This document shows positions 7,398 to 36,166 of a stretch of 36,383 bases of DNA, piece after piece. The stretch comes from Eubacterium sp. (GTDB taxonomy: Bacteria > Bacillota > Clostridia > Lachnospirales > Lachnospiraceae), in the NCBI GenBank assembly GCA_017614395.1, contig JAGABX010000083.1, positions 1 through 36,383 of the forward strand, read 5' to 3'. How positions within the stretch are numbered: position 1 is the stretch's first letter; the number at the start of each line of letters is the position of its first letter. The translations under genes and the position numbers were made by a program. The notes below the pieces were generated by a model. It was not told the DNA's origin, made no database searches, and saw only the letters and a list, made by a program, of their open reading frames with translations.

Positions 7398-7519
7398 TGT
7401 TCTTACCCCCTTATTATTTTTGATCAATTCATGTTATTATATACAGAACTCGCAGTACTGCTGCCTTCAAATACCTGTACAAACAAGCAATAATGTCCGA
7501 TTATTTTGTGCCGATAGTA

Positions 7520-9409
7520 CTATGTCGTTTCACCCTCATAACGCAGGCAAAGCATCGTTATATCATCCGCCTGTTCAGCATCACCCGCAAATCCGTTTAC
7601 ATCCAACAGGACATCCCTGCAGACCTCTCTGCAATAATCCTTTCCTACGCTGTGTATCTCTCCTGACAGAACCTCTCTCAGCCTGTCCTCACCATAATAC
7701 ATATCATCCGGATTAACGCTCTCCGTCACACCATCCGTATACAGATACAATGCGTCTCCCGGCTGCAGCTGAATCTCATTTTCACGATAACGCGCCATGT
7801 CAAGCGTGCCCATCAACAGTCCCGGTTTTACCTTCTGATATTCCGGTTTACCATCCCGTATCAGCAACGGTGGATTGTGTCCGGCATTGACAAATTTCAC
7901 GAGGCCGGTCGTGATATCCAAAAATCCCATCCACACGGTCAAAAACATTCCCGTGTCATTCTCCTCGCACAGTTTTTTGTTTGCCAGCGTGAAAACCGAA
8001 GCAGGCGGCTCTCCCGATTCCGCATAATTCTTGATCACGGTCTTGGCTCGCATCATGAACATCGCCGCCGGAATTCCCTTGCCGGAAACATCCGCGATCA
8101 GGAAACACAGCGTATTGCCGATCATATAAAAATCATAGAAATCCCCGCCGACATCCTTTGCTGTGTTGATCGTGGCATAAACCGCAAATCTCGTCTCGTC
8201 GGAAAAAGCAGATCCCGCCGGAGGCATGGAGGACAGCTGTATCTCTCTGGCAACCTCTAATTCCTTGTCTACTCTTTCCTTCTCCTCGCGGATATATCCA
8301 CGCAGCGAGTCAACCATGTCATTGATCCCATCAGACAATATTTTGAATTCCTTCGTGGAATAAACGTCAACTTTCTGTTCGAGATTGCCCTCAGCTATCT
8401 GCGTCATCCCGACGTCTAAACTCTTTATCGAATCAATAACATTTCTTTTTAGAATAACAAAAACAACTACAAATATAACTATGATAATAAAGATTAATAA
8501 TATTGAAAACGCAAGCAGATTTCTGAGCGCGGCATCAATCATCTCACTTATAGGCAAAACACCCACAATGGTAATCCCCGACCTCAACCCGGAAACAACC
8601 CACGAATCCTCTCCGAAAACGTCCATCCGGAATACTTTATTATTATCTGCTTCCAGCCGGTCCTGAGACAGTCCTGATTCACTGATGTTTTTCCCGAGAT
8701 ACTCCGGTTTGTAGCAACTGATAATCATGCCTTCCCTGTTGACTGTCATCATGTATCCATCCTTACCGACGGATTGAAATGACACTGACCTCGCCAGAAT
8801 ACCATCTATTATGTTCTCAACCCCGTTCCTGCTGTATTCCAACTCGAGGAACCCATCTCCGTCCGAAAACGGCATAGCGGCAAACAAGGTTTTATCAAAC
8901 GCGTCATTGGAATCCCGTTCCAAATCATTCATAACAAATGTCGTTTTGTGCTCTACCAGGGGGATCAATTCTGAGAACTGATCCTCGTCATGAATATCAA
9001 TTCCTATATATTCATTTTTTGTTGATGCTGTAATGATGCCGTTTTTATCAATAACACTTATCTCACAACTGCCATTCAAATATTTTTTTTCCTGATATGC
9101 GCGCAGTTTTTTGCTTAAATCACCCGATTCATTTTTCAGCATTTCCACAACTACCGCATCATCGGACAGTGACATGTTCACCGTTTCCTCGAGCATGGAA
9201 AAAGAGTCTTCTCTGACGTCATGCAGTTTTTTGATTATGAGTTCATGAGCCTCTGCTTTTTCATGTTCCAGAAACAAAAAACCAAGTACTAAAAAAAGCC
9301 CGGCCATTCCTATTACACCTATCAGGATCAGCCTGATTGAAATAACCGAGAACAATCGTCGGTTTTGTTTCCGCTCTTTTTTTCTTTGGTTTTTATCCTG
9401 ATTATTCAT
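7520..9409 (-). CDS. Membrane sensor PP2C phosphatase (SpoIIE/RsbU type)
   Basis: This 629-residue protein has a transmembrane helix near residues 24-46, an extracellular Cache-like sensor region to about residue 290 and a second helix near 295-318. A HAMP linker (VIDSIKSLDVGMTQIAEGNLEQKV) and a C-terminal SpoIIE domain follow. Metal-binding and core motifs of the phosphatase are DVGGDFYDFY, ADVSGKGIPAAMFM, NAGHNPPLL, LYTDGVTES and ADDITMLCLRY. Such enzymes dephosphorylate STAS-domain antagonists in partner-switching pathways. The start overlaps the STAS stop (ATGA), which points to translational coupling, and the kinase of the system is encoded upstream. The external signal is unknown. Confidence 0.93.
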   Translation of the reverse strand: MNNQDKNQRKKERKQNRRLFSVISIRLILIGVIGMAGLFLVLGFLFLEHEKAEAHELIIKKLHDVREDSFSMLEETVNMSLSDDAVVVEMLKNESGDLSKKLRAYQEKKYLNGSCEISVIDKNGIITASTKNEYIGIDIHDEDQFSELIPLVEHKTTFVMNDLERDSNDAFDKTLFAAMPFSDGDGFLELEYSRNGVENIIDGILARSVSFQSVGKDGYMMTVNREGMIISCYKPEYLGKNISESGLSQDRLEADNNKVFRMDVFGEDSWVVSGLRSGITIVGVLPISEMIDAALRNLLAFSILLIFIIIVIFVVVFVILKRNVIDSIKSLDVGMTQIAEGNLEQKVDVYSTKEFKILSDGINDMVDSLRGYIREEKERVDKELEVAREIQLSSMPPAGSAFSDETRFAVYATINTAKDVGGDFYDFYMIGNTLCFLIADVSGKGIPAAMFMMRAKTVIKNYAESGEPPASVFTLANKKLCEENDTGMFLTVWMGFLDITTGLVKFVNAGHNPPLLIRDGKPEYQKVKPGLLMGTLDMARYRENEIQLQPGDALYLYTDGVTESVNPDDMYYGEDRLREVLSGEIHSVGKDYCREVCRDVLLDVNGFAGDAEQADDITMLCLRYEGETT

Positions 9410-9714
9410 ATCCCGGAAATATCTAAAATATCTGTGAGACCGGTGTATTCAAACACCTCCATGTTGGACTCGTTAACATTTATTACCTTAACTGTTCCGT
9501 TGTTGCCGGTGACCTTTTTATATGCGTCAATTATAACACGAAATCCCGCCGATGCGATGTAGCCGAGTTCCTTCAGGTCAAATATCAGCTCCGACACTCC
9601 GCTCAGATCCTCGAGCTCTGTTTTCAACTGCGAGCTGGTTCCCGAATTCAGTTTTCCCTTCAGAAACACCGTAAGTGTTGCACCTGAGAGTTCCTTTTTA
9701 ATCTCTAATTCCAT
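9406..9714 (-). CDS. STAS-domain anti-sigma factor antagonist (second copy)
   Basis: This 102-residue protein is a single STAS domain like SpoIIAA and RsbV. LTVFLKGKLNSGTSSQLKTEL is the N-terminal strand-helix unit. The phosphorylation loop reads LGYIASAGFRVI, retaining the serine two residues before the glycine. It should be phosphorylated by the RsbW-like kinase (11086-11517) and dephosphorylated by the phosphatase whose gene overlaps its stop. It lies 18 bases after the lipid-kinase gene. Confidence 0.9.
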   Translation of the reverse strand: MELEIKKELSGATLTVFLKGKLNSGTSSQLKTELEDLSGVSELIFDLKELGYIASAGFRVIIDAYKKVTGNNGTVKVINVNESNMEVFEYTGLTDILDISGI

Positions 9715-9732
9715 GTGATTCTCCTTTCTTTT

Positions 9733-10689
9733 TCAGCGCTTTTCGATGGTTTTCATCGGTTTTTTCTTTTTGGGTTCCGCATCCTGTCCGTGGAAAAACC
9801 TGACTGCCTGTTGCCGGTTGGTGATCTCAACGCGTTTTCTGATCCCGCCGTTTTCACCATCCATTGTATACGGAACAGGTTCACTGGTTTCAATCGTAAA
9901 CTTTTTACATAAAAAGGTCTTGATCTGCGGACCGAAATCCGAAAAAATAAACGAGCCTAAAATCCTGTTTAACTCAATTGGATTTTTTGGTGTTTTGACA
10001 AATATACCCTCAAACAATCCATCATCTAACCTGACATCCGTTTTACGGAATATCTTCTGACCGCCTACGGTTTTTGCGTTTGTAACAATGCCGATGATGA
10101 CATCATCCTCCCAGGTCTCATCCTCGGTCTCAACGCGAACATGAATGCTTTTTATGGCTCCGAGTTCACTGATGCCCCTGAAAAAGTAAGCAAGCCATCC
10201 CATGAGATTTTTGGCCTGTTGCGAGGTATCATATGACACCGCGGTAAATGCTCCGAACCCGGCCACATAAACAAACGGTTCATCATCCATCGTTCCGATA
10301 TCAAATAATGATGAAACCCGGCCGGATGCTATCTCTGCTGACTTAACAATATTTCTGGGGAGCTTTAACCCGTTGCTGAAATCGTTCATTGTTCCAACCG
10401 GAATATAACCGCACGGAGGACGCAGCTCGGGTGGCAGATCCATCAATCCCTGCACTACCTCGTGAAGTGTTCCGTCACCGCCCGCACAGATCACACGGCG
10501 AAAACGCGTAGACTTTTTCCCGAGTCTGCTGTGAATGATCTGCGTGGCGTCGCCATGCTTTCCGGTTGCAAAAATATTCACATCCAAACCTGCGCGCATG
10601 AAAACCTCAATTACCTGCGACAGTTTGTTTTTGATCGCCCCGGTACCCGAATTCGGGTTATAGATAAACAACGTTTTTTCCCTTGCCAT
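9733..10689 (-). CDS. Diacylglycerol/sphingosine-kinase family lipid kinase
   Basis: This 318-residue protein belongs to the DagK/YegS family of soluble lipid kinases that phosphorylate diacylglycerol or similar lipids at the membrane using ATP. The nucleotide-binding start LFIYNPNSGTGAIKNKL and the hallmark CAGGDGTLHEVVQGLM (residues about 66-81) are intact, followed by PVGTMNDFSNGLKLP and the FDIGTMDDEPFVYVAGFGAF strand. The C-terminal RKRVEITNRQQAVRFFHGQD is typical. It sits inside the partner-switching cassette between two STAS genes, which is unusual. It may connect phospholipid turnover with the regulatory output, or may simply share the transcript. Confidence 0.9.
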   Translation of the reverse strand: MAREKTLFIYNPNSGTGAIKNKLSQVIEVFMRAGLDVNIFATGKHGDATQIIHSRLGKKSTRFRRVICAGGDGTLHEVVQGLMDLPPELRPPCGYIPVGTMNDFSNGLKLPRNIVKSAEIASGRVSSLFDIGTMDDEPFVYVAGFGAFTAVSYDTSQQAKNLMGWLAYFFRGISELGAIKSIHVRVETEDETWEDDVIIGIVTNAKTVGGQKIFRKTDVRLDDGLFEGIFVKTPKNPIELNRILGSFIFSDFGPQIKTFLCKKFTIETSEPVPYTMDGENGGIRKRVEITNRQQAVRFFHGQDAEPKKKKPMKTIEKR

Positions 10690-22382: not shown

Positions 22383-23282
22383 TCAATAACTATATTTCGC
22401 CTGGTAATTCGCGGCATTGTTGATGTAATTCATAATGGACTGGCTTGACCCGCCGGTAGAGGCAAATGTCGGATCCATCAGTTTCCATTTATTACCGGCC
22501 AGGTAAATCGCGCCGGTGATCCATCCCTTTTTCTTGCTATAGACATTCACCCAGGCGTGATACTCCGAACCGGTGTAACCGATGACGAGCTTCACCGGAA
22601 CACCCTGACTGCGCATCATTGCCGTCATGGTCGCCGCGTAGTCAAAACAGATGCCCTTTTTCGCGTCATACACGTTGTCCAGCACGGGCACATAGCCGGC
22701 CTGCACGGTTTTTGCCTTGTTATTATCGTACTTGAAATACTTGATTACCCAGTTGTAAATCTTTTTCATTTTCTTCAACTCGGTATTTGCATTTTTGCAG
22801 AGCGATTCCGCCTTTTTCACGCACTTGGTACCGGCTGCGTAATCCACATACTGGTTGGGACGGATGTATGGCTGGAACTCATCACTTAGGGTCACGCTGA
22901 AATTTGCGGTGATCACATTCGCGTATTTGTTGCCGTCAACATTTTTCAGAACGCTGACCTTGTAACTTCCATTTCCATCCGTCAGAGGCAGAACCTCGTT
23001 ATTCTTTTTCCGGAGAAAATAGTTGTAGACGTTGGATGGTCCCTGTACCTGAACAGCGATCTGTTTATCTGTGTTTTCAAGGTACTGGATGTTCACGTAC
23101 CCCTTCGCCGTGTTGGAATAATCGACGATGCAGTTTTCATTTTTTTCGACTTTTTCACCGGTCGCCTCGGTCGACTCGATGATGATAGATGCCTGCGCGC
23201 GCGGCGTCCCGCCCGTCAGTGCCCAGATGCAGGCAAGCATCAGTGTCGCCGCAAACAGGCGACCAAACACTCTCCATCTCAT
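22383..23282 (-). CDS. Secreted transglutaminase-like (papain-fold) protein
   Basis: This 299-residue protein starts with a signal peptide (MRWRVFGRLFAATLMLACIW, likely cut after AQA). It continues with an immunoglobulin-like region and then a transglutaminase-core domain. The catalytic triad is visible as Cys212 in GICFDYAATM, His242 in EYHAWVNVY and Asp270 in LMDPTF. Such domains act as cysteine proteases or crosslink proteins outside the cell. The ATG at 23282 has GGAGGG seven bases upstream. It heads the pilus-like cluster from its own promoter (23417-23445), so it may process or crosslink surface pilins. Direct substrate evidence is lacking. Confidence 0.9.
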   Translation of the reverse strand: MRWRVFGRLFAATLMLACIWALTGGTPRAQASIIIESTEATGEKVEKNENCIVDYSNTAKGYVNIQYLENTDKQIAVQVQGPSNVYNYFLRKKNNEVLPLTDGNGSYKVSVLKNVDGNKYANVITANFSVTLSDEFQPYIRPNQYVDYAAGTKCVKKAESLCKNANTELKKMKKIYNWVIKYFKYDNNKAKTVQAGYVPVLDNVYDAKKGICFDYAATMTAMMRSQGVPVKLVIGYTGSEYHAWVNVYSKKKGWITGAIYLAGNKWKLMDPTFASTGGSSQSIMNYINNAANYQAKYSY

Positions 23283-23416
23283 GGCATATCCCTCCGTTTC
23301 TATCTCCATTCTCCTTATCTTCATGCCGGGTTATCCACCGTTAAATCGGTCAATGCAATAGGAAATCACCGAATTATCAGCCATATAACAGTGAAACCAC
23401 CCACCATTTCACAGAT

Positions 23417-23588: not shown

Positions 23589-23671
23589 TTGAAGTACATT
23601 GAAGCGTTATTGAAATGACATTGAAGCAGTTGTTGAAATGATATTGAACTTGACATTGAAGAGATGTTGAA
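23589..23671 (+). repeat. Array of eight TTGAA repeats spaced 10-12 bp
   Basis: TTGAA begins at 23589, 23599, 23610, 23621, 23633, 23644, 23656 and 23667, giving spacings of 10, 11, 11, 12, 11, 12 and 11 bp. The unit is roughly NATTGAARNNN. All copies are in the same orientation and about one helical turn apart, so they line up on one face of the DNA. The last repeats interleave with the -35 and spacer of the promoter at 23650-23678. The array looks like a cooperative operator for a multimeric DNA-binding protein. Confidence 0.8.
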
Positions 23672-23678
23672 GTATAAT
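23650..23678 (+). promoter_or_regulatory. Perfect sigma-A promoter of the AlbA_2 gene
   Basis: TTGACA (23650-23655), a 17-bp spacer and TATAAT (23673-23678) match the consensus exactly. Transcription should start near 23685, some 48 bases before the ATG. Two of the TTGAA repeats lie within the spacer (23656 and 23667) and another just before the -35 (23644), so a protein bound there would probably repress. Confidence 0.85.
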
Positions 23679-23732
23679 AGAAGATGTTCAATAAAAACCA
23701 CCGTCAGGTTTATCGAAAGGAGATGTTTTTTA

Positions 23733-25175
23733 ATGTTTTTAGAAGAATTGACCGGTGAATTACACCTGGAGGACAACCATTTCGAATGCAAACAACTCCT
23801 GGATCGAGATAACATCCTCGGCTGGCTGAAAACGATAGCCGGCTTCGCCAATGCGAACGGTGGAGCACTGTTTATCGGTGTCGAGGACAAAACGAACAAA
23901 CTGATAGGATTTGAACGAAGCGACGCCGACAGCGAACGCAACTATTTCAACAATCAAATTAACGAGCATCTGACACCTCGGCCGGATATCAAAGTTGAGT
24001 TCCTGAGATATGAAATTCGAAAAAAAGAGCGTTTTATCATCCGTGTTACTGTCCCGAGTTCCCCTGTCAAGCCGGTCATCGTAAAATACAAAAACATCCC
24101 ATCCATTTTCATGCGACGTGACGGATACACTAACGGCGCAACCTACGAAGAAATAATAGAAATGAGCATACACAGCCAAAACACTCAGTACGATATACTT
24201 CTCTCAGATGTCCCTTATGATGCAAACTCATTCACCGCGCTCCGTTCATTTTACGCAGAGAATAATGGTGACAGCGAGTTGAAGGAAAAAGCGCTTCGTT
24301 CAATGGGATTCTACAACGAAAACGGGTTGCTCGCAAACGGCGCTGTGCTTTTTATGGATAATTATAATGGTGGCAAAACATCCGTCCAGTGTTCTGCTTT
24401 TTCCGGTTTTACCAAAGGAAGTGAGCGGATTGTGACAATCAACCGCTACGACGGCGACATCACGACAACCATCCGGAAGATCATGGATTTTGTCAAACAG
24501 CGTATGAATCATTCCGTAATCAAGCTTGGGGATTCCCGTAAGAATATAGATGCCTTTCCTGAACGTGCATTATTTGAAGGAGTGATAAACGCTGTTGCAC
24601 ATCGCGACTACTTTTTGGATGGAACGCAGATTCAGGTGGATTTGTTTCGGGACAGGTTGGAAATAACCTCACCCGGTGGGTTCTATCGGGGTGAGAAATT
24701 CGGAAAAACCTACGATCTGTCAGGCATCATTTCAAAACGAAGAAATGAGCTGATCACCAATGTTCTGGTCGCTTGTAATGTTATGGAAGCCGCAGGCACG
24801 GGATTTGACAAAATAACAGAGGAATACAGGGGGGTTGACAATCCTCATCGCCCATTTATTTGTTCATCCTCGGACCATTTCACGCTGGTCCTCCCGGACC
24901 TGACCTATGAAAAGGGCGTGGAAGACAGCGGTCTGCCGCAGGTTGTATTTGCGACGGTTCCAAACGGAACAGACAAGGATGAAAAAGTGCTCGCATTCTG
25001 CTATAATCAAGCCCATCGTTCCTCAGAGATTGCAGATTTTTTAGGCATGTCGGACTCATCCTACCTGAGAGGCAAGGTGCTGAGTAACCTTGTAATAAAT
25101 GGTTTCCTCGAGGCAGAAAAGAATTCACGGACAACATACTATAAAACGAATCGGGATGTGGTGGGAACAGAGTGA
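23733..25175 (+). CDS. AlbA_2/Schlafen AAA_4-type DNA-binding protein with GHKL-like domain
   Basis: This 480-residue protein starts with an AlbA_2 (formerly AAA_4 or divergent Schlafen) domain: ECKQLLDRDN, the invariant IAGFANANGGALFIGVED near residue 40 and the FMRRDGYTNGATYEEI strand. The central part contains ALFEGVINAVAHRDYF with DRLEITSPGGF, the N and G1 boxes of an HATPase_c_4 domain. The C-terminus looks like a winged helix (HRSSEIADFLGMSDSSYLRG). The ATG at 23733 has AAAGGAG upstream; an open frame to 23664 would start before the promoter's expected transcription start. Family members are often called transcriptional regulators, and some lie in defence islands. It may bind the TTGAA array in front of it. 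Its last codons recur at 33221-33250. Confidence 0.88.
   Translation: MFLEELTGELHLEDNHFECKQLLDRDNILGWLKTIAGFANANGGALFIGVEDKTNKLIGFERSDADSERNYFNNQINEHLTPRPDIKVEFLRYEIRKKERFIIRVTVPSSPVKPVIVKYKNIPSIFMRRDGYTNGATYEEIIEMSIHSQNTQYDILLSDVPYDANSFTALRSFYAENNGDSELKEKALRSMGFYNENGLLANGAVLFMDNYNGGKTSVQCSAFSGFTKGSERIVTINRYDGDITTTIRKIMDFVKQRMNHSVIKLGDSRKNIDAFPERALFEGVINAVAHRDYFLDGTQIQVDLFRDRLEITSPGGFYRGEKFGKTYDLSGIISKRRNELITNVLVACNVMEAAGTGFDKITEEYRGVDNPHRPFICSSSDHFTLVLPDLTYEKGVEDSGLPQVVFATVPNGTDKDEKVLAFCYNQAHRSSEIADFLGMSDSSYLRGKVLSNLVINGFLEAEKNSRTTYYKTNRDVVGTE
25149..25165 (+). repeat. Left copy of the 17-bp direct repeat flanking the RM module
   Basis: AATCGGGATGTGGTGGG encodes the NRDVVG end of the AlbA_2 protein. 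The same 17 bases occur at 33224-33240, 8075 bp away, and the similarity continues imperfectly through the stop codon (GAGTGA then RACCA). The two copies bracket the McrC-McrB-methyltransferase-DUF5688 module. Confidence 0.8.
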
Positions 25176-25201: not shown

Positions 25202-26650
25202 TTAATTCCCTATATCCAGCTTGGGTGGATTAACAGTATACTCACAATATTTCAACAGACCTATGTCTTTGCGAGAGTTTATCACCAATTCAACATCAAC
25301 CGGAAACATATCCTCTTCCACGGAATCAGATGATTTAACATCCGATTGCGATTGCCCTTCTTCAGAATCAGCCGATTTAACATCCGATTGCGATTGCCCC
25401 TCTTCTGAACCATCATTCTTGTCCTTCGATCCATCGTCCTTCGGAAAAACAAACCCGCATTGATCAACATTCAGTAAAAGAGCATAACTCAACAACTGAT
25501 GGGTGTCGTTTCTGTTCACACGCGTTCTGTCCTTGTATTTCACGTCATAAACATACTTTACATCATCAAGTGATTCTTCATCCAAACTCTCATCTCTATC
25601 TCCATCTATTTGGGGTTCATATATCATAATATCGGGAATTAGTTCTTTACTGAGATGGCACTTTTCATAGAACCCTTTGTAAACACTGATATGCGCATCA
25701 AAGGGATACAACCGGAGATTCTCCGGAAGCTGTTTCCTGATTAACGATCTGACATAAAGCTCAAAAAGCCTTTCCATGTTTATCATGTAGGGTATTATTC
25801 TTATGGATTTTCCATCATCTCCCTGATCAAATGCAACAGAGCCATCCTTGTACAGGATTCTTGCCAAACCTATAGCATACTTATAGTATGCAAACAAGCC
25901 ATTGGTTTTCGCATTACCAAATAATTGGGCACTTAACGTGACATCTCTCACACCGTCAAGAATTGTTCTGCAATACCTAATCATGGATTTTATATTCGGA
26001 TACTCCACCGTACTTGAATCCATAATCCTGGAGGCTCTCTTTAATGCGGCCTTCAGAATTTGATTCTCCACTGTGTCTGTAGAAAAAGTACTGTACCTGC
26101 AATAAACCCTGTCCTCTCTGCCCTTTAATACATTGTTTCTAATGTGTTTATTAAAAAGAATCTTTCCCTTTATCTTTCCATTTAGATTCTCTTCATGGAA
26201 ATCCATCTGATTTTTAATCCTTTTTTTGCAGATTTCCTCGCACGCCCTGATAAAGGAAATCGCTAACAACATCTGACCGCCGGCGACGTGTTTTGTTGTT
26301 TCAATGAGCGGTTCTCTCTCGTAGAACTTGAACAGGGGGTCCTCTTTGTTTTTTTCTGCATATGCCGGATACTCCTCGTCCTTAAGAACAGCATCCAACA
26401 TGACAAACGGATCCACATCAAACCCGGGAACCACCTGTAGCAAATAGGGATCATCATTTTCATCCTTAATGTAGTTCTCATCACGATCCCTCAGGCGGTT
26501 CACTCCCACATATCCGGAGGTCCATAATTCACCTTTGTATTCATGAATCTCAAAATTAAACGGCTTGTTCAGGTCTATTTTTGCCATCTTTTCATCATCT
26601 ATGGCTATTTTCAACGGTTTCCAGTCTTTGTTTTGAAGAATTTCACTCAT
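25202..26650 (-). CDS. McrC-like restriction nuclease subunit
   Basis: This 482-residue protein matches the McrC family. The N-terminal half interacts with the McrB ring in known systems, and the C-terminal half is a PD-(D/E)XK nuclease. The core is visible as ELIPDIMIYE (Asp near residue 339) and YVYDVKYKDRT (DVK near 369-371), followed by HQLLSYALLLNVDQCGFVFP. After this comes an acidic Ser/Asp/Gln insert with a 14-residue tandem repeat (EEGQSQSDVKSADS) at about residues 415-445, which separates the last strand from the core. It ends 26 bases from the convergent AlbA_2 gene. It is the last gene behind the methylase and McrB genes and should cut DNA when driven by the McrB-like motor. Confidence 0.9.
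   Translation of the reverse strand: MSEILQNKDWKPLKIAIDDEKMAKIDLNKPFNFEIHEYKGELWTSGYVGVNRLRDRDENYIKDENDDPYLLQVVPGFDVDPFVMLDAVLKDEEYPAYAEKNKEDPLFKFYEREPLIETTKHVAGGQMLLAISFIRACEEICKKRIKNQMDFHEENLNGKIKGKILFNKHIRNNVLKGREDRVYCRYSTFSTDTVENQILKAALKRASRIMDSSTVEYPNIKSMIRYCRTILDGVRDVTLSAQLFGNAKTNGLFAYYKYAIGLARILYKDGSVAFDQGDDGKSIRIIPYMINMERLFELYVRSLIRKQLPENLRLYPFDAHISVYKGFYEKCHLSKELIPDIMIYEPQIDGDRDESLDEESLDDVKYVYDVKYKDRTRVNRNDTHQLLSYALLLNVDQCGFVFPKDDGSKDKNDGSEEGQSQSDVKSADSEEGQSQSDVKSSDSVEEDMFPVDVELVINSRKDIGLLKYCEYTVNPPKLDIGN
25332..25399. repeat. 42-bp tandem duplication inside mcrC
   Basis: A block of 26 identical bases starts at 25332 and again at 25374, exactly 42 bp apart, and flanking bases match with few changes. 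It encodes two copies of a 14-residue acidic Ser/Gln-rich unit and keeps the reading frame. It looks like a recent slippage event in a flexible loop. Confidence 0.85.
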
Positions 26651-26728
26651 TTTGACAATTCACCTGTTGTGTCCAATCATCATTTTTAAAAGTTAACTCA
26701 ATTTAATAATTCGAACATCATTTTCAGT

Positions 26729-29410
26729 TCAAAGTAAAGCATTCCATAAATCATCCTCGGAAATACAATCCTTCCTACCATATTTATTCAGATAATCCAT
26801 GATCGGATTCTGTCCACTCGTTTTATCTGATTTTTTTGATACGAGAATTCCGTCCTTATAATACTCTCTCAAAATCGGAAGCACCTGATATTTGAACTTG
26901 TTTTTCATCTCTGCATCATCATGTGCCAAAAACATGGTGTGCCCGACCTGAACATCATCCTTGAAAAAATCGTCACTCAAATTTGTATCAAAAACCTTTT
27001 CAACCTTCTCAAACAACTTAGTATTATTTTGAGGTTCTGTAGTGCTATTCTGTTGTTGTTGTTTTTGTTCGTATTTCTCAACAACCTTCTTGTCAGGCAA
27101 TGTAGGGAAAAATATAAATCTTCGTCTGACCGCATAATCAATGTTTCCAATTGATTTATCTGCCGTATTCATAGTGCCAATTATATAAAGATTGTCTGGC
27201 AGAACTATGTTATAATCTCCGACATTATCTGCCTTGTAGGGCGTTGCCACATTCTCATTCCGGTATTCAAGGGCATATATCAACTCTCCGAATGTTGTTG
27301 AAACATTTGCCCTGTTGATCTCGTCAATGATCAGAAATACGGGTGCTTCTCTGCCAACCTCGTTATTTTCAGCATCCGCCTTATTCCCGTTGTTTGATCC
27401 ATTGAGTTTTGATGCAAATAATGCGATTCTACCTAACAGTTTATTTATTGTCTCATATTGGATTGACGATCCTCCCGTATTAACTGTGATTCCACGTACA
27501 AAATCCTCATAGCCATATGACGGATGGAACTGAACGATATCCCAGTATGCGGGTTGAGCGGCAGGCGCCTTTCCGGACGGATCACCCTCTGCCCACTTGT
27601 ACCAATCGTCCTTAATTTTACAAGCATCAAGTTTACCCTTGTTACCTGCATCATCGAGATCAACATTATCTTGATCTACACTTTTATCAATCTGAGACAG
27701 AATAAACGCCTTCGCCCCATAGGTCTTTGACGTTCCTGGAGGACCCTGCAGTATCATTTGTCTGACATTCATTGAGTCCATTATTCCTTTGTAATCATTG
27801 CTTGACATTTTTCCAACTCCTTTCAGTGTTGCGCTGATCAACGCACCATTTATACTTTTTTGAATGTGATCGCCCTCCTTTGATGTCAATATGATTAGAT
27901 TATTCTTGTCTAGTATTTCATCGCAAAAGTCTGGATCCTTCTTATCTTTCTTTGAATCTAACCACTCTAAATCTGATTCAATAATAATAAGCAGATTATT
28001 AAGATTAGTGTCATTTGGATTACCATTAATCAAATCAATAATCCCCTGTTTATATAAACAGTAATAACCATATACCAATCTGCTTGCTATCGGAATTATT
28101 GGTGCAGCTGTAGCCGAATCTTTTGGAGTATTTCGTTTTGCCACCTCCACAGTATTAAAGGAAACAGTTTTGTTCGTGTCTCTCACGCCAACCATCAGCA
28201 TGTAATCAGCATTGTCATAATTGTATACTGGATAGTTGGATGAACTCCTTCCTTTTGAATAATACATTGATGGCGAAGAGTGAGAAGGATTATCATTGTA
28301 TACAAATCCATTTTGACTGGATTTTTCTTCTACCAAAAACGAAGCATCCTTATTAATCGGATTCTTGTTGTGTACTAGCAAAGCTGCTATATTTAAATAC
28401 AAATCGGTCATTAACTTGCTATCAGCAACTAGCCCACTTTTCCATGTTATCTCAAATAATCCCCTAATATAATCTGGTTGACTCGGCTTATTTTTTAATC
28501 TTTGTACTATATACCCAAACGGCTCTTTTTCTTCGTCTCGTGTACCACTTATTCCTTTTCTGATTTTTCTTATTCTATCAGCTATCGGCGCTTTATTGAC
28601 ACTCTCCTGCGCAGCCTTTCGGTATTTTTCAACATCAGATAAACTAATAGCTATAATACCGCTCGATGCATACATCTGAATCAACGGAATAACCTGATAA
28701 CAAATTCGCCTTTGAATTTTTGTTCTGCTGTCGTCAATAAACCAACCATGCCCTATCTCATACTCCCTTGTCAAATCCCTGTCAAATAAATGCTGCTTAA
28801 CTAAAGCATTATACTCATCATATGCCTCCAAGGCAAACCCATTAACCTTGCCCGCTGAAACGAGTTTTTCTATAACCGTCCTATCACTGAACAGAGTCTC
28901 GATGTTGAATCTTCTGAAAAAGGCATAGTCCGGCTTGTTGTTCATGAACACAGTTGATATCGTGAGAATTACAGCAACATTTGACGGAATCACCAGCGCG
29001 TCTCCTGAACGAAGCGTCACTTCACAATCTCTGTTTTCAATGGCATAGAGCAACTCGCCGAAACATGATGTGATATCTGTTTTATCAATATCATCCAGTA
29101 TTATTGCATATGTCTGATTAGGATCTTTCTTGGCACGCTTGCATAACTTTTTAAATACCCTGTCAACCGGAGAGTACTTTATCCCACCGGCTGTAGATAT
29201 TTCAATCCCCTCTACGAAAGAGTCGTAATCACAGCCTTCGTGGATCGGGAGATATTCAATCCTGCTATTACCAGAGTTTAATACTTTTCTGTATACATCG
29301 TCTGTGTAATCAGAATCCCCATTTACAACTCCGGTTTCTCGGCAGGCTATTACCCTGGCTCTGCGCGTCTTTCCGCTCGCCAGTGTACCCTGAATCAAAT
29401 AGTTTTTCAT
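26729..29410 (-). CDS. McrB-like AAA+ motor with two AAA domains
   Basis: This 893-residue protein contains two AAA+ modules. The first begins at residue 1 with Walker A GTLASGKT (8-15) and a Walker B-like IILDDIDKTD near 105. Its sensor region is ILTISTVFMNNKPDYAFFRR, lacking the McrB hallmark. The second has Walker A GPPGTSKT near 557, Walker B LIIDEINRANVSTTFGELIYALEYR near 690-715, and the McrB-specific GTMNTADKSIGNIDYAVRRRF near 745. McrB proteins hydrolyse GTP in hexameric rings and activate McrC. No separate N-terminal DNA-binding domain precedes the first AAA, so DNA recognition may lie in the 300-residue middle region. It starts 20 bases after the methylase stop and precedes mcrC by 78 bases. 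Confidence 0.9.
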   Translation of the reverse strand: MKNYLIQGTLASGKTRRARVIACRETGVVNGDSDYTDDVYRKVLNSGNSRIEYLPIHEGCDYDSFVEGIEISTAGGIKYSPVDRVFKKLCKRAKKDPNQTYAIILDDIDKTDITSCFGELLYAIENRDCEVTLRSGDALVIPSNVAVILTISTVFMNNKPDYAFFRRFNIETLFSDRTVIEKLVSAGKVNGFALEAYDEYNALVKQHLFDRDLTREYEIGHGWFIDDSRTKIQRRICYQVIPLIQMYASSGIIAISLSDVEKYRKAAQESVNKAPIADRIRKIRKGISGTRDEEKEPFGYIVQRLKNKPSQPDYIRGLFEITWKSGLVADSKLMTDLYLNIAALLVHNKNPINKDASFLVEEKSSQNGFVYNDNPSHSSPSMYYSKGRSSSNYPVYNYDNADYMLMVGVRDTNKTVSFNTVEVAKRNTPKDSATAAPIIPIASRLVYGYYCLYKQGIIDLINGNPNDTNLNNLLIIIESDLEWLDSKKDKKDPDFCDEILDKNNLIILTSKEGDHIQKSINGALISATLKGVGKMSSNDYKGIMDSMNVRQMILQGPPGTSKTYGAKAFILSQIDKSVDQDNVDLDDAGNKGKLDACKIKDDWYKWAEGDPSGKAPAAQPAYWDIVQFHPSYGYEDFVRGITVNTGGSSIQYETINKLLGRIALFASKLNGSNNGNKADAENNEVGREAPVFLIIDEINRANVSTTFGELIYALEYRNENVATPYKADNVGDYNIVLPDNLYIIGTMNTADKSIGNIDYAVRRRFIFFPTLPDKKVVEKYEQKQQQQNSTTEPQNNTKLFEKVEKVFDTNLSDDFFKDDVQVGHTMFLAHDDAEMKNKFKYQVLPILREYYKDGILVSKKSDKTSGQNPIMDYLNKYGRKDCISEDDLWNALL

Positions 29411-29430
29411 ATATCAGCCATCCCTCTGTC

Positions 29431-31818
29431 TCAACCTGCGTTTTCTTTTTCTATGCCTATATAATATATCGAATTGGCATCCACATTAATTGTGAACTTG
29501 GATTTATTCTTTACAATAGCGTAGTATTTTCTGAAATCCTCGGAAGCATAAAAATCGAGAGCCACATGATCGATATGATCCTTTGGCAACAAAATGCAGA
29601 AGGATCCATTTACCGTACATCCATCAGGTAGAATAGACGCCCTCGTATTATATGTAAAATTCGTGAAGATAATGGGTTTTGTATTGTAATACCTTGAGAG
29701 ACTAAAACCTTCTACCGAATCAACGTATTTGTCATAGCCCGGCTTGTGGACAATCGAGCCGTCATCCAACAAATTCTTGGATCTTACAACCCAGATGTTT
29801 TTCTTTTGATCTGAGAGATACTTGTTGGTCAGCTGCCTGTCTCTGTAGAAATCGAACACACCGAGCCTCAGTTTCTTGATATACCTGTCAAACCATTTAT
29901 CCCTGTACAACAGCCACATAGTATCATGATAAATGTATCCTTGCTTTACAGTTTTTTCCTCATCCTCGACATAATTTCTAATATACAATTCGCCTGTATA
30001 GTCCTTGGAAAAATGCAATGAGAGGATTTCTATGAACACCTTTTTAAAAAATTTGACACCATAATCATATATGGAAACAATGCCATATTCACTTGAATAG
30101 ATTTCCCTTGTATCATCGCAATCCGGGATCATCAAAAACACCTTTGGAATAACGAGCATGACATCTTTTGCCAAACCATTTATCTTTTTCATAAAAAGGC
30201 AAAAGATGTTATCGTTCACAAAACCAAAGCTGTTCTTGTATGCTTTCTTTTGCGCTGCTTTCATTTTGTAATAGGGGGGATTTGCAATGACTGCATCAAA
30301 CTCTTGTGGTTGATTTGATAACAGAAAGTCCTCACATATAAACTTAAAATGAAACTTGGGTGTAAGTTTCATTTCTAAAACGAATTCATCCAGCCGGGAC
30401 AAGCATTCCTGTGATATATCATAACAAACAAATTCCACCTCATCGCAATCGTCCACCAAACGAAGCATTTGAGGTATGAACGCCCCCATTCCAACGGATG
30501 GCTCGAGAATGCGAACGCTCTTTTGGGACGGCTTGTATTCCTTTATCGCATTATATACAACGATCTGTGGCGTATAGAATGAGCCGGTGTCCTTCGCATC
30601 GGAAAGTTTCCACTCGTACACAAAGGATTTGATATACGGATTATTTGTTTCCCGCTCATCTATATCATACTTTCCACACTTAACAAACTCGTCATACTCC
30701 AAGAGTATACGAATGTTTTTAGCAATCTGTCTCATGATCGCCGTCGGAACGGCCTCACCAATCGACTGCCTGATCAGCGTTTCCTTGGAATCGATGACCT
30801 CTGCTCTGTAATCATCGTCCGAAACCCACTTGAACTCTCGTGGTATGGTCATCACAGCCATCAGTTCCCTGATTGACAAAACTCTGTCGTCTCGTGGATG
30901 GATGGTGCTCTGACTTGCCAATTGATCATTTCGTGTAGTTATGCAGGGAGCTGTCTGGTCCCAGAACATTCTCCGGAACTTGTTGCCCATGTGCCCCGAT
31001 TTAAGAATTTGCCTTTTTCCGTCAACAATTTTGTAGGGCAGCATGTCCTCTGGATTGTTGAATGCAGACTCGCCTTCCTTCAAGTCATGGATCCATTCCT
31101 GCATATACTCGGGATATGTCCTAAACGAATGGAGGATGTCGTTCTCATCACGTTCACCATATTCCAAAGAGGGATAATTTCCAATCGCTTCACGTACCGT
31201 AACTTCTTTTTGCTTTAAAGGAAACAGATTTAAAGGAGTAAAGTTTTTCTCCTCCTTTAGCGTTCCGATAACAATCGTTCTCGGTCGACTCGACGGAACG
31301 CCATACTCCTTGAAATTAACGACTTTAGAATATATGTTGTATTCAGACAGCAAATGCTTGTTAATACAATTCCCAATACATAATTGCTCCTCATCCTTAT
31401 CCACACAATTAGTCTTTAAAAAGGCTTTGACATTTTCAAACACAAAGATTCTTGGTTTGATTTTCTTAATAATGTGAACAGCCTCAACAACCAGCGAATT
31501 CCTCTTGGTTTCATCGCCCTTTTTATAATTCACGGTGGACATGCCCTGGCAGGGAGGCGTGGCAACCACGACGGTCACTCTGTCAAGTCCCTCCTGCCTT
31601 TTCCACAAATCTATTTCACCATATATTTTGTTTACCGTCTCCGGATCCTGAATGTCTCCGCAGATGTATCCGCTGTCATACTTGCATTTATCGTTTGCTC
31701 TCTGAATATCAAGCCTTCTCTCTATTTTTTCATTCGTAGCAATGCATTCGAACCCCTCCATCTTGTAACCAAAGCATCCAACCCCGGCACTACTGAACAA
31801 ACTGATATATGTATTCAT
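29431..31818 (-). CDS. Fused cytosine-C5 / adenine-N6 DNA methyltransferase
   Basis: This 795-residue protein joins two complete-looking methyltransferases. Residues 1 to about 380 are a C5-cytosine enzyme: motif I YISLFSSAGVGCFGYKMEG, motif IV ATPPCQGMS with catalytic Cys90, motif VI FVFENVKAF, motif VIII SSRPRTIVIG and motif X RQSIGEAVPTAI. Residues from about 400 are a gamma-type N6-adenine enzyme: GSFYTPQIVVYNAI, motif I ILEPSVGMGAFIPQML near 440 and motif IV IANPPYYKMKA near 513. A 200-residue C-terminal part follows that should hold its target-recognition domain. The ATG at 31818 has GAGGGTG upstream; the open frame to 31863 starts at a TTG. It leads the mcrB-mcrC unit from its own promoter and presumably protects host sites from them. 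Confidence 0.92.
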   Translation of the reverse strand: MNTYISLFSSAGVGCFGYKMEGFECIATNEKIERRLDIQRANDKCKYDSGYICGDIQDPETVNKIYGEIDLWKRQEGLDRVTVVVATPPCQGMSTVNYKKGDETKRNSLVVEAVHIIKKIKPRIFVFENVKAFLKTNCVDKDEEQLCIGNCINKHLLSEYNIYSKVVNFKEYGVPSSRPRTIVIGTLKEEKNFTPLNLFPLKQKEVTVREAIGNYPSLEYGERDENDILHSFRTYPEYMQEWIHDLKEGESAFNNPEDMLPYKIVDGKRQILKSGHMGNKFRRMFWDQTAPCITTRNDQLASQSTIHPRDDRVLSIRELMAVMTIPREFKWVSDDDYRAEVIDSKETLIRQSIGEAVPTAIMRQIAKNIRILLEYDEFVKCGKYDIDERETNNPYIKSFVYEWKLSDAKDTGSFYTPQIVVYNAIKEYKPSQKSVRILEPSVGMGAFIPQMLRLVDDCDEVEFVCYDISQECLSRLDEFVLEMKLTPKFHFKFICEDFLLSNQPQEFDAVIANPPYYKMKAAQKKAYKNSFGFVNDNIFCLFMKKINGLAKDVMLVIPKVFLMIPDCDDTREIYSSEYGIVSIYDYGVKFFKKVFIEILSLHFSKDYTGELYIRNYVEDEEKTVKQGYIYHDTMWLLYRDKWFDRYIKKLRLGVFDFYRDRQLTNKYLSDQKKNIWVVRSKNLLDDGSIVHKPGYDKYVDSVEGFSLSRYYNTKPIIFTNFTYNTRASILPDGCTVNGSFCILLPKDHIDHVALDFYASEDFRKYYAIVKNKSKFTINVDANSIYYIGIEKENAG

Positions 31819-31968: not shown

Positions 31969-32985
31969 CTACACCTGGCATTGTTCAATTCTATCAGTTT
32001 CAGCATTATATTTGTACACCTGTGTTGTCAACATTTCTCCATCACCGGCAAAATGCGAATTGAGATCCTTGATTTTTCTCTTGAGAACAATCGCCCGTGT
32101 CGTGCCGACCTTGTGTAAAGTTGCGTCGTGTATACTTGTGAATACAATGAAATACTCATCCTCAAACAATTCATACAATCGCTTGGCTACGCCCGGATAG
32201 AACATCGCGATTGCACCATTCAGCCATGTGGTTGTTGTAACCGTCGGATGCTGGTTCGGCGAAAATTTCGCAACAGAGGCTACCGGTGACATAAATACAC
32301 CTTTTTCATATGTAGCATTTTCCGCCTCGTCGGGTGAAAAATATACTCTCGGCGGAGACATGACAAATGTATTGATCATCGCCTCCTCCCAAACCTCGTC
32401 AAGGTCAACATTCCATCCATTTACTATGTCAGCCGGCACTTTTATCGACATCAGATTGTTTGTCTCACCCGGTACATAATTCTGAATCAGCGCGTAGAGG
32501 ACAAACACCATGTCGCCAAACCTCTTGTAGACATGCCCCTTTAGGCTATTTCTGTTATCGTTATAATTAAGCGGTCTGATAAACAGCCTGTTCTTTACTG
32601 GTTCATATTTTCCAGTGGACAAAAGCTCGATTGTCGGAGAATCAATTTGTTCACGCACCTGTTCAAACGATTCTTCCAAGTCATGCCACACCTTGTCTAT
32701 CCCGTCATTTCGATAGGTATCAAATAATGACCCACAATGGATGCGTACCGTGAATTCATGTTCGCCCGGAAACACTATGAATAAAAAGTCACCCTTGAGA
32801 ACATCCGATTCAAGTCCATGATTGTACCGCAGATTTGTATCACGGATATTTGCTATTTCTTCCGGATCATCCGAGGTATATCCGTCCCTCAGAAATCGGA
32901 TGTCTGTCGGCGAGAAATCTTTCCTTGCATGTGAGGGAATCTCACTCATGAGGCTTTCCATAAACTCTTCATATTCCTTGTCCAT
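31969..32985 (-). CDS. DUF5688-like protein of the RM module
   Basis: This 338-residue soluble protein has no membrane helix or catalytic motif I can name. Its order of elements resembles the DUF5688 family of Lachnospiraceae. A central IKVPADIVNGWNVDLDEVWEEAMINTFVMSPPRV is followed by WLNGAIAMFYPGVAKRLYELFEDEYFIVFTSIHDATLH and a final VYKYNAETDRIEQC. The ATG at 32985 is certain from AAGGAGGAGGAG upstream, although the frame is open to 33120. Its function is unknown. It lies inside the flanking repeats of the restriction module, has its own promoter and shares the 15-bp box with the methyltransferase promoter, so it is probably a module component or regulator. The family name is a tentative assignment. 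Confidence 0.75.
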   Translation of the reverse strand: MDKEYEEFMESLMSEIPSHARKDFSPTDIRFLRDGYTSDDPEEIANIRDTNLRYNHGLESDVLKGDFLFIVFPGEHEFTVRIHCGSLFDTYRNDGIDKVWHDLEESFEQVREQIDSPTIELLSTGKYEPVKNRLFIRPLNYNDNRNSLKGHVYKRFGDMVFVLYALIQNYVPGETNNLMSIKVPADIVNGWNVDLDEVWEEAMINTFVMSPPRVYFSPDEAENATYEKGVFMSPVASVAKFSPNQHPTVTTTTWLNGAIAMFYPGVAKRLYELFEDEYFIVFTSIHDATLHKVGTTRAIVLKRKIKDLNSHFAGDGEMLTTQVYKYNAETDRIEQCQV

Positions 32986-33084
32986 GTTCGTCTCCTCCTC
33001 CTTAACAGCTTCTTGCCAGCACATCAAAATCTGAATTGTCCAACACTTTCGCATGTCGAATTGCACACATACTTCCTTGCCCAT

Positions 33085-33113
33085 ATTGTACCACAAATCG
33101 GAAATCGTTACAA
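33085..33113 (-). promoter_or_regulatory. Promoter of the DUF5688-like gene
   Basis: On the minus strand TTGTAA (33113-33108), a 17-bp spacer and TACAAT (33090-33085), with TGG as an extended -10, form a good promoter. The leader to the ATG at 32985 is about 95 bases. Confidence 0.75.
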
Positions 33114-33125
33114 GACACATTCAGT
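33111..33125 (-). promoter_or_regulatory. Shared 15-bp box, DUF5688 copy
   Basis: The sequence is identical to the box at 31916-31930 and likewise runs into the -35 TTG. A related CTGAATG occurs about 17 bp further upstream on the same strand, near 33139-33145. Confidence 0.65.
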
Positions 33126-35288: not shown

Positions 35289-36125
35289 CTACAGCAGGTT
35301 CATCTCCCTGTCAAACGCGTCGTAATTTCCGATATCATGTGGCGAACAGTAAACGGCGAATTCGATGGTGTCGAAATATCCGTCATAGTCGTTCAGGATT
35401 TCACGGTAGGCTCTCGCTACAGTCTTCGGATCGTTCCGGAACGCGCCACAGCCGAACGCTCCGAGAATTACCACCTCGCAACCATTTGCCGCTGCTATAT
35501 CGAGAATACGCCGGCCACGCTTTTTATGAATATCCAGGAGCTCCTGTTCCGACAGTTTCGCAGGTTTGTTCCCGGCATACGGATTCATGGCATTGGACGG
35601 GTTTGCGCGCAGGTTCGGCGCCGCGCAGGTGATGATGTCGACCTGCATCCACTCATTCTCCGGTAACAGCTCCGGTACTGCCTTGTCAGATTTGAACACG
35701 GTCACGCCCGGCGTGAAAATGCAGTCCGCGTTGTAAACCGGGTTATGCATATTCCTATGCGGCTGGTAGAAGCCGTCAAAATTTATCTGCGTACTGAGAC
35801 ATGGGAACAACGTACTGACGCGGCACAGGCATTCCTCCTGCGCTGACGAGCCGCGCTCCACTCCTCCGCCGGGATTGGTCGCGGATGCGAAATTGTGGAC
35901 GCATACCTTTTTCCCGCGATAATTCATGGCCGCCTCGATGCTGCGACTGCGTGTTACGACCACGCGGGTGTCATAGTCCTTTTTCTCCGGTTTTTTCACA
36001 GACTCGGTTTCCGGATAAATCCGCTGTCCGCTTAGTGATTCACCGATAGAATTCTTCAATTTGTTGATGTTGAGATACATTTTTTTCGTATCCTCAAATA
36101 CCTGTACATTTTCTTCTCTTCCCAT
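35289..36125 (-). CDS. TIGR02452-type protein, bacterial PARG-like macrodomain
   Basis: This 278-residue protein belongs to the microbial poly(ADP-ribose) glycohydrolase-like family (TIGR02452). The signature GGG-x-x-x-x-x-x-x-QEE is present as NPGGGVERGSSAQEE (84-98), where the second glutamate is the catalytic residue in characterised bacterial PARGs. VVILGAFGCGAFRNDPKTVARAYREIL (about 215-240) is the second ADP-ribose-binding loop. It should remove ADP-ribose from proteins, nucleic acids or free polymers. The ATG at 36125 has GGAGG nine bases upstream. It has a candidate extended -10 promoter (36167-36175). No ADP-ribosyltransferase is visible in the window. Confidence 0.92.
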   Translation of the reverse strand: MGREENVQVFEDTKKMYLNINKLKNSIGESLSGQRIYPETESVKKPEKKDYDTRVVVTRSRSIEAAMNYRGKKVCVHNFASATNPGGGVERGSSAQEECLCRVSTLFPCLSTQINFDGFYQPHRNMHNPVYNADCIFTPGVTVFKSDKAVPELLPENEWMQVDIITCAAPNLRANPSNAMNPYAGNKPAKLSEQELLDIHKKRGRRILDIAAANGCEVVILGAFGCGAFRNDPKTVARAYREILNDYDGYFDTIEFAVYCSPHDIGNYDAFDREMNLL

Positions 36126-36166
36126 GGTAATTTTCCTCCTAAACAATACGTAGCTACTGTACTCTT

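Follow-up and report, generated by a model that had tools for sequence, protein, structure and literature searches.

A fused C5-cytosine/N6-adenine methyltransferase followed by tandem-AAA mcrB and mcrC genes in Eubacterium sp., a probable LlaJI-like restriction-modification locus

Introduction

The closest described relatives of the locus reported here include restriction systems that combine McrB-type AAA proteins with DNA methyltransferases (MTases). The locus lies at positions 25202-31818 on the minus strand of a 36,383-nt stretch of DNA from Eubacterium sp. (GCA_017614395.1, contig JAGABX010000083.1; the whole stretch analyzed is called the window), where the gene of a fused C5-cytosine/N6-adenine (C5/N6A) MTase is followed by mcrB and then mcrC, all three on one strand and in operon-like order. 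We consider it likely that these genes form a type II restriction-modification (R-M) system with a LlaJI-like mode of action: the MTase would protect both strands of one site, and McrBC would cut unmodified DNA.

LlaJI (Lactococcus pNP40, L254) has MTases that cover both strands of an asymmetric site, as the fused enzyme of the window probably does; in both cases the genes of a McrB-type AAA protein and of a nuclease come next in the same run, and LlaJI restricts unmethylated DNA (PMC1459862). However, LlaJI has two separate C5 MTases where the window has one fused C5/N6A enzyme, its R1 subunit is a single-AAA protein with its own DNA-binding N-terminal half whereas the window McrB is tandem, and its nuclease is annotated as LlaJI family, unlike the PF10117 McrC of the window. 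BsuMI and LlaI are grouped with LlaJI as McrBC-related type II systems with MTases (PMC2614495), but each has three restriction open reading frames (ORFs), with small McrB-like subunits of 343 and 337 aa (PMC1459862). For all three, which are related to McrBC, cutting of unmethylated DNA has been published (PMC2614495, PMC1459862). The type IV McrBC of E. coli shares McrB AAA and McrC with the window by sequence; it differs in lacking an MTase of its own, in cutting RmC (purine-methylcytosine) DNA and in having a single-AAA McrB with an N-terminal DNA-binding part (PMC1459862, PMC2614495). An earlier sequence-only reading of this DNA had likened the locus to LlaJI and BsuMI, and the presence of two MTase halves with intact motifs, a McrB-type AAA protein and a nuclease in one gene run supports that resemblance.

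The occurrence of McrBC next to MTases is an already recognized association (PMC2614495, PMC11090510). Bell et al. 2024 (PMC11090510) report MTase-associated branches of McrBC, in which McrB-like GTPases go together with predicted DNA MTases; a fused MTase, tandem AAA domains and HNH exchange are not among the features described in the available part of that paper, which defers the description to a separate one. On the MTase side, an H. pylori bifunctional enzyme (Kumar and Rao 2011, title cited in PMC3411764) also has adjacent N6A and C5 MTases in one protein, but it arises by nucleotide insertion, and the H. pylori MTase pair is described as the remnants of an MnlI-like system without its restriction endonuclease (REase) (PMC3411764). 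Fused C5+N6A MTases with a one-protein REase (PADLOC models PDLC03277 + PDLC03488) belong to the same MTase family as the window enzyme and have the restriction gene adjacent, mostly downstream on the same strand; the difference is the one-protein cutter in place of McrB + McrC. In the open-licence literature, we found no report of a fused C5/N6A MTase paired with McrBC, of a recognition domain retained across HNH and McrB cutters, or of a tandem McrB with a signature-less first AAA domain. The earlier reading named no described system with this exact layout, which agrees with that literature as to the combination; the McrBC-MTase association and the bifunctional MTase are each known.

Gene organization of the locus

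The three genes and their parts are as follows:

29431..31818, minus: fused C5-cytosine/N6-adenine DNA MTase, 795 aa from ATG (PF00145, PF07669, PF02384; PADLOC PDLC03277 at full length, 3e-172; 87-row family tree)
30703..31818, minus: C5-cytosine MTase half, residues 1-372 (PF00145 at residues 4-369; PCQ, ENV and GEAVP intact)
29434..30618, minus: N6-adenine MTase half, residues 401-795, motif I EPSVGMGAF, motif IV NPPYY (PF07669/PF02384)
26729..29410, minus: McrB-type tandem AAA protein, 893 aa (AAA_5 in two stretches; PDB McrB structures match the second AAA; tandem relatives L113, L255, L276 and the split L056)
28646..29410, minus: McrB AAA1, residues 1-255, Walker A GTLASGKT, Walker B ILDDID, no NxxD (motif check)
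27821..28645, minus: McrB middle region, residues 256-530, candidate DNA-recognition module (between the AAA domains; most divergent part of the tandem McrBs)
26732..27820, minus: McrB AAA2, residues 531-893, candidate motor, Walker A GPPGTSKT, IIDEINR, MNTAD, RRRF (motifs, PDB McrB matches)
25202..26650, minus: McrC-type nuclease, 482 aa (PF10117, 1.1e-28)
25538..25636, minus: McrC PD-(D/E)XK active site, P339-D340 ... D369-V-K371 (motif reading)

All three ORFs are uninterrupted, and G+C in 1-kb windows is 38-42% over the three genes versus 43-46% in the two windows either side. The single 795-aa ORF with intact C5 and N6A motifs had been read correctly from the sequence in its coordinates, length and motifs, and the McrB/McrC-type pair placed in the same gene run is confirmed by AAA_5, by PF10117 and by intergenic gaps of 20 nt (MTase-mcrB) and 78 nt (mcrB-mcrC). 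The tandem nature of McrB, with two McrB-type AAA domains per chain, had been overlooked.

The fused methyltransferase family

In the C5 half of the MTase, the motifs PCQ (residues 89-91, with Cys90), ENV (128-130), RPR (178-180) and GEAVP (354-358) are found, and the N6A half carries EPSVGMG (439-445) and NPPYY (513-517). Pfam matches are DNA_methylase (2.4e-40, residues 4-369), Eco57I (6e-11) and N6_Mtase (7.4e-8), and residues 3-790 align to positions 8-819 of PDLC03277, an 823-aa type II MTase model. A single-protein scan of the genome collection gave no match. A profile scan of the collection gave 239 MTase relatives, and the counts on the best 80 of these are given below. PCQ and (N/D)PP(Y/F/W) are found in one ORF in 79/80 of these, a share that is not a census since the query profile was itself built from fused proteins. 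Under table 11, the N-terminal part of the sole exception, L180 of a Mycoplasma relative, falls into a separate ORF. With both halves in one ORF in 79 of the 80, a chance or assembly joint was ruled out as the origin of the fusion. Because the C5 and N6A profiles cross-match, fusion was judged by length and motifs rather than by profile labels.

The family tree comprises 87 rows (the window, L003, L004, L006 and L101-L183) and, like all trees here, is a quick build. Across these rows PCQ is kept in 86, ENV in 87 and (N/D)PP(Y/F/W) in 87; strict EPSxGxGxF is found in 76/87, the variants inspected reading EPAxGxGxF or similar. The bifunctional MTase, which the sequence-only reading took to be unusual, proved to be a member of a widespread family found mostly beside a one-protein type II REase and matched by PDLC03277, and a bifunctional MTase is in print for H. 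pylori (title cited in PMC3411764). Amongst class genomes, 16/391 had an MTase match at E <= 1e-20, the window's own included, and these matches contained three further fused MTases (G680, G492 and G619). Those of G680 and G492 show 41-42% identity and have a one-protein REase beside them (L295, L296). The G619 protein (in L294) is one 840-aa ORF, with an identity of 51% for the C5 half and 30% for the N6A half. The 804-aa gene that follows it (both within L294 5094-10394) matched none of the HNH, McrB and McrC profiles and no Pfam family, and is possibly a further cutter type.

Related halves were also observed apart. The viral contigs L184, L185, L188 and L189 carry the C5 half alone (54-57% identity), with no partner of this N6A family nearby; in L184, L185 and L188, a DPPY-motif ORF lies upstream of it. 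Viral contig L187 has two tandem C5 genes related to the C5 half of the MTase (47%).

Different cutters beside close methyltransferases

The family tree separates into two clades. Clade B (61 rows) has a one-protein REase, by our own profile, in 59 rows, and no detected cutter in two (L159, at a contig edge, and L179). Among the best 80 relatives, the REase adjoins the MTase at 53/55 clade-B loci, including one fusion (L137), six loci where the REase is encoded on the other strand and four where the gap exceeds 100 nt. The clade-B member L141 matches the PADLOC REase model PDLC03488 at full length. Since none of the six clade-B enzymes scanned (L003, L004, L126, L141, L150 and L160) had a Pfam HNH match above cut-off, "HNH-like" is for this clade a label taken from sequence reading and our own profile. 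The fusion L137 (8929-12741, from an Alistipes metagenome-assembled genome) is a single 1270-aa ORF matching the C5, N6A and HNH-REase profiles, and appears to be an all-in-one MTase and restriction enzyme.

Of the 26 rows of clade A (window included; support 100), sixteen have an HNH-motif REase (16/25 of the clade-A loci among the best 80 relatives), two (L115 and L116) reach a contig end and eight have McrB-type neighbors. HNH_2 scored above cut-off in 6/6 enzymes scanned (L106, L107, L112, L118, L119 and L123); the HNH enzyme of L106 is split into two ORFs. Pfam identified McrB with PF10117 McrC beside the MTase in L101, L103 and L104, McrB with RE_LlaJI in L102, and a stand-alone recognition domain, McrB and RE_LlaJI in L117 and L120. 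Among these rows, a tandem McrB with PF10117 McrC was seen only in the window and in L113, which repeats the window's three-gene order with an MTase 51% identical to the window's. The HNH-REase profile matched none of the window ORFs of at least 80 aa, and tandem McrB + McrC occupy the REase place. Best-segment MTase identity to the window is 39-43% for clade B and 50-56% for clade-A members with HNH enzymes.

The target-recognition regions of the MTase were compared across these cutter types, with boundaries (C5, about residues 201-305; N6A C-terminal, about residues 621-795) set from general knowledge of both MTase classes. Compared with 18 rows labelled HNH_A, among them L115 and L116, whose contigs stop before a cutter can be read, the window has a mean identity of 61% across the C5 recognition region, with 63% and 57% for the cores; the N6A C-terminal region stands at 55% and its core at 41%. 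For the 59 clade-B rows, the C5 recognition region gives 50% (56% and 51% for the cores) and the N6A C-terminal region 36% (29% for the core). The window's C5 and N6A recognition regions are 77% and 69% identical to those of L101, and 54% and 54% identical to those of L113. The conservation of both regions across cutter types suggests, without proving it, that one site is shared.

A recognition domain shared by HNH and McrB-type cutters

The clade-A HNH enzymes have a conserved N-terminal domain of ~250 aa, and the N-termini of clade-A and clade-B REases are related (hhalign probability 98.2). The same domain was found in front of the AAA domain in L101-L104 and as a stand-alone gene of 248-249 aa in L117 and L120 (e.g., L117 11198-11944), so that it is retained in six of the eight clade-A McrBC-type loci; the window and L113 lack it. 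Because type IIS enzymes carry an N-terminal recognition domain (PMC4081073), this domain would be the part that recognizes the site. It corresponds to no Pfam family, showed only weak matches among PDB sequences (designed TPR proteins and one coat protein), and its alignment as query found no viral relatives. In a tree of 21 rows, the domain agrees with the MTase tree, L117/L120 grouping with L119 at 98 and L101-L104 together at 97, which fits the MTase and the domain being kept together while the cutter is exchanged at a constant site.

The McrBs of the eight loci belong to three lineages, namely the tandem one (AAA1, 99; AAA2, 89), that of L101/L103/L104 (100) and a LlaJI lineage (100) containing L102, L059, L117, L120, L190 and R1.LlaJI. 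The underlying AAA tree has 56 domains, five phylum McrBs (L067, L081, L084, L085 and L091) having been missed by the motif filter. On the MTase tree, approximately unbiased (AU) tests rejected a single origin of all eight McrBC-type MTases (p about 6e-71) and also of the tandem pairing in the window and L113 (p 0.00044); these tests used quick trees of 32 rows that included six selected clade-B outgroups, and the end branch of L113 is 0.85 in the 87-row tree. The lineages and the AU results together indicate at least three and up to five McrBC acquisitions. The viral contig L190 has a LlaJI-like cluster of its own, in which a McrB of the LlaJI lineage and a McrC-profile nuclease accompany two MTases that match the C5 profile.

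A wider proposal, to which we give an even chance, is that one dual-mark MTase, usually with its paired recognition domain, stays constant while the cutter is interchangeable, being either a one-protein HNH-type nuclease or a McrBC engine, the latter gained from the three McrB lineages on at least three and up to five occasions. The window and L113 would then have a tandem-AAA ring of alternating full and impaired sites that reads the same site by means of an unrelated module.

The tandem McrB and the McrC nuclease

AAA_5 matches the window McrB in two stretches, which correspond to an AAA1 of about residues 1-255 and an AAA2 of about residues 531-893, and solved McrB structures in PDB match AAA2. 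The NCBIfam McrB model matches the protein at 7.2e-32, which is below the curated cut-off of that model. The Walker A/B and NxxD motifs of a LlaJI-type McrB are found in AAA2 (IIDEINR, MNTAD). Amongst the tandem McrBs, AAA1 keeps Walker A and B and lacks NxxD in 5/5 examined, AAA2 has Walker B and MNTAD in 4/4 that are readable (in L056 the gene is split at that place), and its Walker A is GPPGTSKT, with Ser replacing the usual last Gly, in the 4/4 read. In the Ruminococcus phage NatCom_38182 (L056, 3597-6359), the annotation breaks the tandem McrB into two ORFs, with the split inside the second AAA. A second "McrB x2" ORF in L127 was a false match to a ClpB-like protein.

As the Walker A motif of AAA1 occupies residues 8-15, there is no room for an N-terminal DNA-binding domain ahead of it. 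The window McrB lacks a sequence-specific domain at the N-terminus like that of R1.LlaJI, and the candidate region sits between the two AAA domains. This middle region matched no Pfam family above cut-off, with one weak HNH_3 match (0.082, window only), and no modified-base reader domain (SRA, EVE, YTH etc.) was found in it by Pfam, although such a reader is possible there. The idea that it is a diverged HNH-enzyme N-terminal domain gained no support from the sequences, hhalign with a two-row profile giving 0.2 against the clade-A domain and 0.1 against clade-B enzymes. In 398 phylum genomes only the window's own match spans the middle region, G029 reaching model position 332 of 548, and the window McrB (P0002) as query found no viral relatives.

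The window McrC matches PF10117 (1.1e-28) rather than PF09563, and has complete PD...DVK motifs. It is 49% identical to the McrC of L113 in the core and 36% in the N-terminus, and BLASTP against an RE_LlaJI relative gave no significant match.

Proposed mode of action

What can be read from the letters themselves are intact motifs in both MTase halves and in McrC, tandem AAA domains, an operon-like order and different cutters beside close MTases. In the LlaJI-like mode of action that we favor, the fused MTase would methylate the two strands of a single short site that is probably asymmetric, the N-terminal half making 5-methylcytosine (m5C) and the C-terminal half N6-methyladenine (m6A), likely on opposite strands. 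At an unmodified site, the tandem McrB would assemble a nucleotide-driven AAA ring, probably of tandem chains in which only AAA2 bears the full McrB signature, and the PD-(D/E)XK nuclease McrC would cut. The restriction side may read DNA via the McrB middle region or the McrC N-terminus. We infer in this way the strand assignment and site asymmetry, as well as the ring architecture. That McrBC cuts unmodified and not methylated DNA, which the sequence-only reading had proposed, is supported as the more likely mode, with LlaJI, LlaI and BsuMI as published precedents (see Introduction).

Several observations weigh against this mode of action. The window McrB is without the recognition domain of its HNH and recognition-domain McrB relatives, so that the reading of the MTase's site by the restriction side is something we infer. 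Motor function is not assured, given AAA1 without NxxD and the Ser in the AAA2 Walker A, and R1.LlaJI itself had no GTPase activity in vitro (PMC1459862). In addition, identity between the window and L113 is only 29% in the middle region, compared with 51% for the MTases, and the fused relative L294 has no HNH-profile or McrBC cutter beside it.

Alternative explanations

The fused MTase could mark two different sites, or one half could be inactive in vivo, which would leave a one-mark R-M system. This is unlikely in our view. The occurrence of the C5 and N6A halves as adjacent separate genes in Acinetobacter towneri (L005), viral contig L186 and two class genomes (L297 and L298), and of C5 halves in viral contigs L184 and L189 that lack a partner from this N6A family, speaks in its favor, but the motifs of both halves are kept through the 87 family rows and both recognition regions are conserved whatever the cutter.

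Another explanation, which we rate as slightly less likely still, is that mcrBC forms a type IV (modification-dependent) system of its own, placed by accident after a solitary or HNH-derived MTase that only marks DNA and whose marks are not the McrBC target. McrB loci without an MTase are indeed common: 0/40 phylum McrB loci had an MTase by C5/N6A profiles or as an ORF with both C5 motifs, in a narrow screen by our own family profiles and motifs on contigs several of which are shorter than 8 kb. McrBC homologs are moreover often MTase-linked, with the MTases expected not to make McrBC targets (PMC2614495), and the window McrB lacks the N-terminal domain of the HNH enzymes. Tandem McrBs, however, are accompanied by MTases even where they were found irrespective of them: the McrB queries identified three, in phage NatCom_38182 (L056) and viral contigs L255 and L276, and each of the 3/3 follows two C5 MTases and precedes an McrC (by Pfam for L255 and L276). 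MTases beside McrB are not confined to tandem McrBs, as MT-A70 MTases were found in plasmid loci L057 and L060 and a C5 MTase in phage L059; the plasmid McrB locus L058 has no MTase annotated. L113, having been found through its MTase, is not an independent case, but it does repeat the three-gene order, and its MTase is 51% identical to that of the window. In the window the MTase is part of the unit, 20 nt upstream of mcrB on the same strand. The neighbor in the wider MTase family is usually a type II REase, and McrBC standing in the place that such an REase holds in most of the best 80 relatives argues against a type IV system. Furthermore, a second C5 MTase in the genome lies beside a piece of an Eco47II-type REase, and its marks would probably clash with an E. 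coli-like RmC-dependent enzyme.

That the restriction half has decayed, with the AAA1 signature lost and only the MTase working, is very improbable: AAA1 without NxxD and an AAA2 with GPPGTSKT instead of GxxxxGK(S/T) could be read that way, but the lack of NxxD in all five AAA1 domains (Walker A/B kept) and Ser in all four AAA2 domains mark these as family traits, the McrC motifs are complete and the three ORFs are uninterrupted.

Genomic surroundings

The MTase/mcrBC cluster looks like a variable defence unit. The only same-genus genome had no MTase match at E <= 1e-20, and the gene order that it has in common with the window ends shortly after the gene of a transglutaminase (window 22383-23324). 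Where the order departs, a gene for a protein with Schlafen/AlbA_2 and HATPase_c_4 (window 23664-25175, plus strand) is convergent with mcrC. Upstream of the MTase lies a DUF5688 gene (window 31969-33120), relatives of which were not found by blastp among the ORFs of the compared loci, and farther up a microbial-type PARG gene (window 35289-36146). The window also encodes a GH3-family (auxin-conjugase-like) protein (5691-7427) in this bacterial genome.

Elsewhere in the genome, the second C5 MTase (G000:C13, L281 5885-7612) adjoins an ORF matching only the second half of RE_Eco47II (model positions 100-201 of 202). In L102, a Hachiman-like pair of HamA and a DEAD-box helicase (6282-10322) follows shortly after the MTase/McrB/RE_LlaJI cluster.

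Significance

McrBC is usually seen as methyl-dependent, and its use as a methyl-blocked cutter has been little studied. If the LlaJI-like mode of action is true, this MTase family would offer a natural comparison between a nucleoside triphosphate-driven cutter and a plain nuclease at related methylation, to which the recognition domain shared in six loci would add. The testable question would then be what a motor-driven cutter adds at a constant site and mark. Additionally, the tandem McrB offers a way to study by genetics how unequal sites act in a McrB ring.

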